A stretch of DNA of 64,000 nt. Origin: Streptomyces sp. B3I8 (GTDB lineage: Bacteria > Actinomycetota > Actinomycetes > Streptomycetales > Streptomycetaceae). The translations under genes were made by a program, and so were the position numbers. The notes below the pieces were generated by a model that searched no databases, was not told the origin of the DNA, and saw only the letters and a list, made by a program, of their open reading frames with translations. Below, in pieces: positions 38,961-39,142 of the stretch. Within the stretch, counting starts at the first letter, position 1. Each line of letters starts with the position of its first letter. The stretch lies in the NCBI RefSeq assembly GCF_030816915.1, contig NZ_JAUSYN010000002.1, positions 7,081,501 to 7,145,500 on the forward strand, written 5' to 3'.

Positions 38961-38990
38961 TTCGCGCGCAGGGTGAGCCTGGGGTATGAT
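38961..38990 (+). promoter_or_regulatory. Promoter of the tRNA-like gene
   Basis: A consensus-like -10 hexamer TATGAT (38985-38990) lies 45 bases before the mature 5' end of the tRNA; a weak -35 (ttcgcg, 38961-38966) is 18 bases upstream of it. The predicted precursor would have about 35 bases of 5' leader, normal for RNase P processing. Confidence 0.5.
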
Positions 38991-39034
38991 CATCACAACA
39001 CGCCGCCGGGGGTGAAGAACCGGCCGGAGTGCAC

Positions 39035-39107
39035 GCGTTGGTGGTCCAAGGAAAGGCGCCCCGCTTCCTGCGGGGAGATGCAGGTGCAAGGCCTGCCCAG
39101 CGCTCCA
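39035..39107 (+). tRNA. tRNA-Gly(UCC) with non-canonical T-arm (GUGC), possibly non-decoding
   Basis: The 73 bases fold into a complete cloverleaf. The acceptor stem 39035-39041 pairs with 39097-39103 over all seven positions (one U-G). The D-arm is 39044-39046/39055-39057 with loop CAAGGAAA, which keeps A14 and G18G19. The anticodon stem 39059-39063/39071-39075 is all Watson-Crick with loop CTTCCTG, giving anticodon UCC. The variable loop is AGAT, and the T-arm is 39080-39084/39092-39096 with loop TGCAAGG. Discriminator U73 and an encoded CCA follow, both as in bacterial tRNA-Gly. The T-loop has G in place of psi-55, and position 37 is U rather than a purine. Both are rare in translating tRNAs. 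Confidence 0.8.
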
Positions 39108-39111
39108 GTGT

Positions 39112-39142
39112 CGCCCCGCCCCGGGACATCCGGGACGGGGCG
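39112..39142 (+). terminator. Hairpin terminator of the tRNA-like gene
   Basis: Bases 39112-39124 pair with 39130-39142 (13 positions, a single C-A mismatch) around a five-base loop, four bases after the encoded CCA. The stem is followed by ttcgcgttccc. With the upstream -10 it defines a short transcript containing only this tRNA. Confidence 0.65.

Follow-up and report, generated by a model that had tools for sequence, protein, structure and literature searches.

Within the window, that is, the whole 64-kb stretch of Streptomyces sp. B3I8 DNA analysed here, ARAGORN reports a single tRNA gene, a tRNA-Gly(tcc) on the forward strand, and the question raised by this locus is whether the encoded RNA serves the ribosome at all. 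The initial annotation had described a complete tRNA-Gly(UCC) cloverleaf with GUGC in the T arm and T at position 37, and had proposed that it is charged but does not decode. The structural part of this description is confirmed by ARAGORN, by the Rfam tRNA model (37.9 bits against a cut-off of 29, in searches of a short stretch and of the whole genome) and by direct reading of the stems, which comprise 7 bp in the acceptor, 3 bp in the D, 5 bp in the anticodon and 5 bp in the T arm. The score is the lowest of the 67 tRNA matches that the genome-wide search listed, and a second related copy in the same genome (C2:205526-205597) is absent from those 67. A fast-filter Rfam scan of the whole 64 kb listed no match, a generic promoter and terminator scan called neither element at the locus, and single-sequence folding gave an ordinary value (z -1.34); the case for this tRNA thus rests on comparison.

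The features of the locus are collected in the table. The discriminator U73 lies at 39104 and is followed by an encoded CCA, the D-loop carries G18G19, the anticodon UCC occupies 39066-39068 with the pyrimidine at position 37 (T, 39069), and C32 and G38 could pair. In the T arm G55 replaces psi55 (39086), the loop reads TGCAAGG, and the stem includes G49-C65 and A51-U63. Among 75 distinct tRNA sequences reported by ARAGORN (L001-L061 plus the window stretch), this is the one tRNA missing GTTC in its T arm, a comparison that did not include the second GUGC family described below, which ARAGORN does not report. The flanking genes, which we take to be TerB-like and DinB-like, were not seen together with this tRNA among the relatives' matches listed.

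Features of the divergent tRNA-Gly locus (positions of the window)
Feature	Position	Strand	Evidence
-10-like box TATGAT, no good -35	38985..38990	+	direct sequence
5′ leader with possible hairpin	38998..39034	+	putative start site; removal by RNase P presumed
Divergent tRNA-Gly(UCC), family A	39035..39107	+	ARAGORN, Rfam 37.9 bits, alignment A1 (43 distinct rows); body conserved to C74 (39105)
Anticodon loop C-U-U-C-C-U-G	39064..39070	+	direct sequence; loop classes counted
T arm GCAGG-UGCAAGG-CCUGC	39080..39096	+	direct sequence; GTGC in 81/81 full-length rows, 50/50 distinct rows
Terminator-like hairpin directly 3′ of the tRNA	39112..39142	+	fold of the stretch and comparison of 140 copies

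The gene belongs to a conserved family, here called family A, whose consensus reads GCGTTGGTGGTCCAAGGAAAGACGCCCCGCTTCCTGCGGGGARATGCAGGTGCAAGGCCTGCCCGGCGCTC, followed by variable bases. Fifty distinct intact rows were counted (43 of alignment A1 and 7 from 14 extra copies) after three odd rows, rows containing N and locus L443 had been left out. All 50 carry G1 C2 G3, C70 G71 C72 U73 and a CC in the anticodon loop, and with these the acceptor elements and loop cytosines of the bacterial tRNA-Gly identity set, given as G1-C72, C2-G71, C35, C36 and U73 (PMC9976931). Most rows had been gathered with a pattern that prescribed the T-loop and the 3′ strand of the acceptor (C70-U73), though no part of the anticodon loop, so 83 rows whose limits came from blastn or model coordinates were checked as well (24 distinct, two partial, the model loci being the best-scoring ones); all 81 full-length rows start with GCG, end with CGCT and carry GTGC in the T arm. 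G55 accordingly stands in place of psi55 in 81 of 81 pattern-free rows and in 50 of 50 distinct rows, the latter count being partly ensured by the pattern. The cloverleaf itself is supported by covariation: 98.5% of cells are paired, as against 37–48% for slid partners, five pairs are changed on both sides, and in shuffles, which ignore relatedness, none of 500 scored as high on four measures and 4 of 500 did on a fifth.

The determinants of decoding have fared differently from those of charging. The anticodon loops fall into three classes, CUUCC(U/C)G in 39 of the 50 distinct rows, (C/A)UCCAA in four and C(A/U)(G/A)CCG in seven. Base 37 is T or C, never a purine, in all 39 seven-base loops; in the 11 rows with a six-base loop this base is not scorable, and six of these 11 are without U33, all within the third class, where six of seven rows read CA(A/G)CCG with A at the place of U33. 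This last sub-family (L429-L442) occurs in several copies per genome (G252, G282, G289, G299, G300). G49-C65 is present in the T stem of all 50 distinct rows and A51-U63 in that of 48, with A51 opposite G63 in the other two, whereas the canonical tRNA-Gly genes compared (UCC, CCC, GCC) have G49-U65 and G51-C63, described as strong EF-Tu pairs (PMC4052509). Features of translating tRNAs that family A does not have are therefore psi55 and purine 37 and, in sub-families, U33 and the seven-base loop. The remainder of the body is well kept: G18G19 is invariant in alignment A1, the partners U8-A14, A15-U48 and U54-A58 are retained, the D- and T-loops are strictly conserved, U4-G69 forms a wobble in 42 of 43 rows of that alignment, and C74 is conserved as in other tRNA-Gly genes. 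The encoded CCA pointed out in the initial annotation holds for the window copy and not for the family, in which just 53 of 140 copies carry CA at 75-76 in the gene.

All intact distinct members, then, keep glycine identity and show altered decoding features, a comparison that lends good support to the view that family A is a tRNA of the glycine type but is not made for decoding. With charging determinants fixed and decoding determinants eroded, the simplest reading is that of a glycine carrier outside translation, and family A probably carries glycine elsewhere than to the ribosome, perhaps to the cell wall.

Two questions that the initial annotation had raised, whether the gene is conserved in Streptomyces and whether a canonical UCC gene coexists with it, can both be answered with yes. 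By score, family A occurs in about 108 of 199 same-genus genomes in one to six copies each and is missing from about 46% of the genus; the figure derives from 118 genomes with a match to covariance model R1 minus 10 weak ones, in which the best match (E about 1e-8 to 1e-6) lies in the range of the paralogue, family B. With blastn, 18 of 61 genomes were matched, the window's own included and a 22-base chance match in G035 among them, all of the same genus; identities were 88–100% at up to five places per genome, with divergent matches in G031 (75%) and G028 (83%). In a class-wide sample of 296 genomes from 114 genera, 16 matched at E<=1e-9, all from one genus, of which at least 12 more genomes gave no match. 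A search of named genomes by the T-arm/acceptor pattern returned at least 120 stretches, comprising 117 from Streptomyces, one from Actinacidiphila and two chance matches. Plasmids carry the family as well, in 69 records (67 Streptomyces, two Streptantibioticus), and S. clavuligerus plasmids among the matches listed have four to eight blastn places each. On one S. clavuligerus plasmid (L092), two copies lie 7 kb apart within the one 30-kb stretch that was read.

The copies are dispersed as single genes. Near-identical copies sit in unrelated flanks and locations vary between species, and presence follows clades, with four changes on a 40-genome tree whose rows were chosen by family A status. 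In G115, copies at C1 37152 and 49198 and at 10217383 and 10229429 are mirror-placed at both ends of a contig of 10,266,650 bases, as if in terminal inverted repeats. Decayed or rearranged copies are found at L137, L177, L188 and L443, with D-loop bases lost, insertions in the anticodon arm, a replaced 5′ end, or changed D- and T-loops. Four of 154 loci were dropped, three as chance matches (L222, L146, L209); the fourth, L157, is probably a genuine member whose D-loop has changed. The column profile took 142 of the remaining 150 copies, and the comparison of leaders and terminators 140.

As to the second question, canonical tRNA-Gly genes with anticodons UCC, CCC and GCC (three) coexist with family A in the genome of the window. 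The canonical UCC gene (G000:C2:2319071) shares with family A the acceptor-stem identity, U73-C74 and the anticodon, yet the two are about 56% identical, and GTTC, purine 37, G49-U65 and G51-C63, all present in the canonical gene, are absent from family A. Matches to the dimeric-type GlyRS amount to two pieces of one gene in 80 of 80 genomes, so that a special synthetase is not needed for charging of family A.

The weak R1 matches led to a second glycine tRNA with GUGC in its T arm, family B, at G000:C2:3365503-3365575 (L049:104-176), 78 bases upstream of a tRNA-Gly(GCC) and with a leader of its own; ARAGORN does not report it at L049. Its neighbours are presumably purine genes and an Lsr2-like gene. 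All 30 rows read have the T arm GCAG-U-G-UGC(A/G)AU(U/C)-CCUGU, with G55, a bulged U and A51-U63, together with AG in place of G18G19 (A18) and a purine at 37. A family B-type score (model R2) is reached in 198 of 199 same-genus genomes, G181 having a lower, canonical-type score only, whereas in a phylum sample no score exceeds 76 bits among 190 genomes from other genera, compared with 103–106 for family B; the 12 best of these 190 outside matches, when read, were canonical with GTTC. Families A and B are 67% identical and have G55, A51-U63 and glycine identity in common, but family B usually occupies one core locus and has purine 37, A18 and a bulged T stem, whereas family A is dispersed and has pyrimidine 37. 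Family B is the better candidate for the universal FemX reaction, with family A as an accessory. Second or third copies of family B were seen in G018, G035, G075, G084, G036, G072 and G144 (L388-L394), all without family A by score. A dosage trade-off between the families is not claimed: the 11 genomes among the 199 in which B-model matches were in surplus all score as lacking family A, and the surplus copy was confirmed by sequence in seven of eight (G222 had one), but the label changes only three times on a 40-genome tree and a paired test had no power.

A GUGC T arm is also found in the staphylococcal tRNA-Gly dedicated to the cell wall. These RNAs are further marked by pyrimidine 37 (PMC2630981) and by A51-U63 for G51-C63, A49-U65 for G49-U65 and UU or CU for G18G19 (PMC4052509). 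The likeness drawn in the initial annotation stands in part. Like family A, the RNAs of Staphylococcus aureus and S. epidermidis are extra isoacceptors beside canonical ones; pyrimidine 37 (39/39 seven-base loops) and A51-U63 (48/50) are common to both, and both hosts have Fem-type transferases. The staphylococcal A49-U65 is not shared, G49-C65 taking its place in family A so that A-U is not what replaced the G-U pair, and neither is the loss of G18G19, for which family B has AG. Six-base-loop sub-families and dispersed single genes in one to six copies, also on plasmids, likewise set family A apart. As both A49-U65 and the G18G19 loss are lacking, we do not file family A as a member of the staphylococcal type, and the two shared features look convergent. 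In the extracts of two sources at hand (PMC4052509, PMC9976931), glycine tRNAs dedicated outside translation are named for staphylococci only, and a search of the open-access literature found no description of dedicated Streptomyces glycine tRNAs.

Which enzyme would consume the glycine? All 80 genomes examined have proteins of the FemAB type, and the use of aminoacyl-tRNA is described for S. coelicolor FemX and VanK (PMC4052509), which makes FemX the default client. A plausible course of events is that the RNA is transcribed from its own promoter to its own terminator, is folded and matured like other tRNA-Gly, and would be charged by the cell's only GlyRS, given its intact identity elements. 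G55, A51-U63, pyrimidine 37, the missing G49-U65 pair and the six-base loop of some sub-families would then make for poor EF-Tu binding and bad or no decoding, leaving the glycyl-tRNA available to a transferase that depends on tRNA. FemX, which adds the bridge glycine of peptidoglycan, would be the most likely user, and the core paralogue B would feed into this pool too.

The genomic evidence for this client is mixed. No universal neighbour gene emerged when the ORFs up to 8 kb on each side of 150 copies were clustered; the largest groups, of 16, 15 and 14 copies, are apparently syntenic loci, e.g. 0.3 kb after a tsaD-like gene. Searched with a FemX profile at E<=10, the 1,195 neighbour proteins gave no match, and no common gene was seen by eye between the tandem copies of L092, L102, L118, L137, L138 and L158. 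The mean number of PF02388 match pieces is 4.15 in A-positive and 3.30 in A-negative genomes, a slight difference that genome size may explain; two pieces, or about one protein, were counted in 13 of the 40 genomes with family A and 17 of the 40 without it, and some genomes with a single FemAB protein carry the family and some with several do not. For the cell-wall donor role envisaged at the outset, FemAB-type proteins are present in every genome sampled, and neither the neighbourhood nor the number of Fem proteins ties them to family A. Given no Fem-like gene nearby, a Fem number that is barely higher, clade-wise inheritance and varying locations, we rate the reading of a glycine tRNA specialised away from decoding, encoded by a free-standing gene and used most likely by FemX, as evenly balanced between right and wrong, and weigh four rivals against it.

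The first keeps the non-decoding glycine donor and changes its main client to one or more natural-product ligases of the GNAT/Fem-like or PEARL kind or to an undescribed enzyme. Family A is patchy, multi-copy and plasmid-borne, quite unlike FemAB (80/80) and family B (198/199), and Gly-tRNA-using enzymes of Streptomyces do exist, namely Orf11 of BD-12 and AmmB3, with DhpK as another Gly-tRNA user (PMC12945691). Yet the neighbour proteins hold no Fem-like member by the FemX profile, the one profile applied, and in our judgement the clients described so far look too uncommon to account for a gene that about half of the species have; we consider this client unlikely, with something still to be said for it.

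The second rival is a regulatory tRNA-like RNA that acts uncharged, and here the transcription signals come into play. The putative promoter and terminator proposed for the gene in the initial annotation are supported by the box and hairpin listed in the table and by comparison of the copies: 114 of 140 copies have an uninterrupted stem of at least 9 bp just 3′ of the tRNA, such a stem being present in 12 of 140 control stretches, and the 3′ flank folds more stably than the control in 137 of 140. A looser hairpin pattern, which fits 140 of 140 copies but also 134 of 140 controls, was uninformative and was not used. When 145 copies were aligned on a box picked as TA...T, bases that are fixed by construction, T, G and G stood at -5, -4 and -2 in 116, 111 and 123 copies, and G, A, T and C at +7 to +10 in 95, 90, 91 and 97, giving a consensus of TG(C/G)G before and GATC after the box in most copies. 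In the window, GATCAT (38988-38993) overlaps the -10 and matches GATCWT, the site of the nucleoid protein Gbn (PMC9239103). Compared with a control, the leader folds more stably in 114 of 140 copies, but RNAalifold gave no consensus fold for 62 gapless leaders, and a hairpin in the 5′ leader is weakly supported. In the column profile of 142 copies, conservation is confined to about -55 to +107, i.e. promoter to terminator, and the profile gives no sign of the conserved ends of an ordinary IS or MITE outside these bounds.

A promoter of its own with a conserved GATC site and strictly conserved D- and T-loops would suit a regulator, and a precedent is at hand in tRNAOther of Bacillus cereus, a tRNA-like gene described as not working in translation and as part of larger regulatory RNAs (PMC3399842). 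Both RNAs are tRNA-like and, as the comparison suggests for family A, non-decoding, but family A, unlike tRNAOther, looks compact, has full glycine identity and is conserved across the genus. A GlyRS identity that stays fixed across diverged anticodon loops makes little sense for an uncharged RNA, and this reading seems to us quite improbable.

A still weaker case can be made for an ordinary, weakly expressed extra decoder of GGA/GGG whose odd loops are tolerated. The window copy retains U33 and a seven-base loop with UCC, so that weak decoding would still be possible, and the family keeps G18G19 and the tertiary partners named above; a canonical UCC gene is nevertheless present, G55 is general, a purine 37 is missing from all 39 distinct seven-base loops, and 11 of 50 rows have a six-base loop, six with A at the place of U33, which together leave the decoder very unlikely. 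Hardly credible, finally, is a role as a decoy that draws off tRNA-cleaving toxins, some other function linked to parasites, or a selfish gene that spreads by dispersal. These would fit the dispersed, multi-copy and plasmid-borne copies and their excess in convergent gaps, where 61 of 134 sites lie compared with 60 of 323 gaps of the background, but not the clade-wise presence, the lack of anything conserved beyond promoter and terminator, or the absence of matches in 50,697 phage records, the lone viral-contig match being a chance one.

Returning to the glycine carrier, it is enticing to propose, a little more tentatively than the FemX-led reading itself, that Streptomyces may run a second, translation-free glycine tRNA pool, made up of core family B and the dispersed, copy-variable family A, the latter being a carrier with a free anticodon loop and fixed GlyRS identity that would feed the cell wall and/or unrecognised tRNA-dependent chemistry. 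If this holds, a family spanning the genus of the chief antibiotic producers would mean that special tRNAs diverting aminoacyl-tRNA have evolved more than once, and low-scoring glycine tRNA genes in these genomes would be neither decoders to count nor pseudogenes to dismiss. Family A would also offer a natural series of tRNAs that lose decoding and keep charging, and an entry point to the Gly-tRNA-consuming enzymes of Streptomyces.
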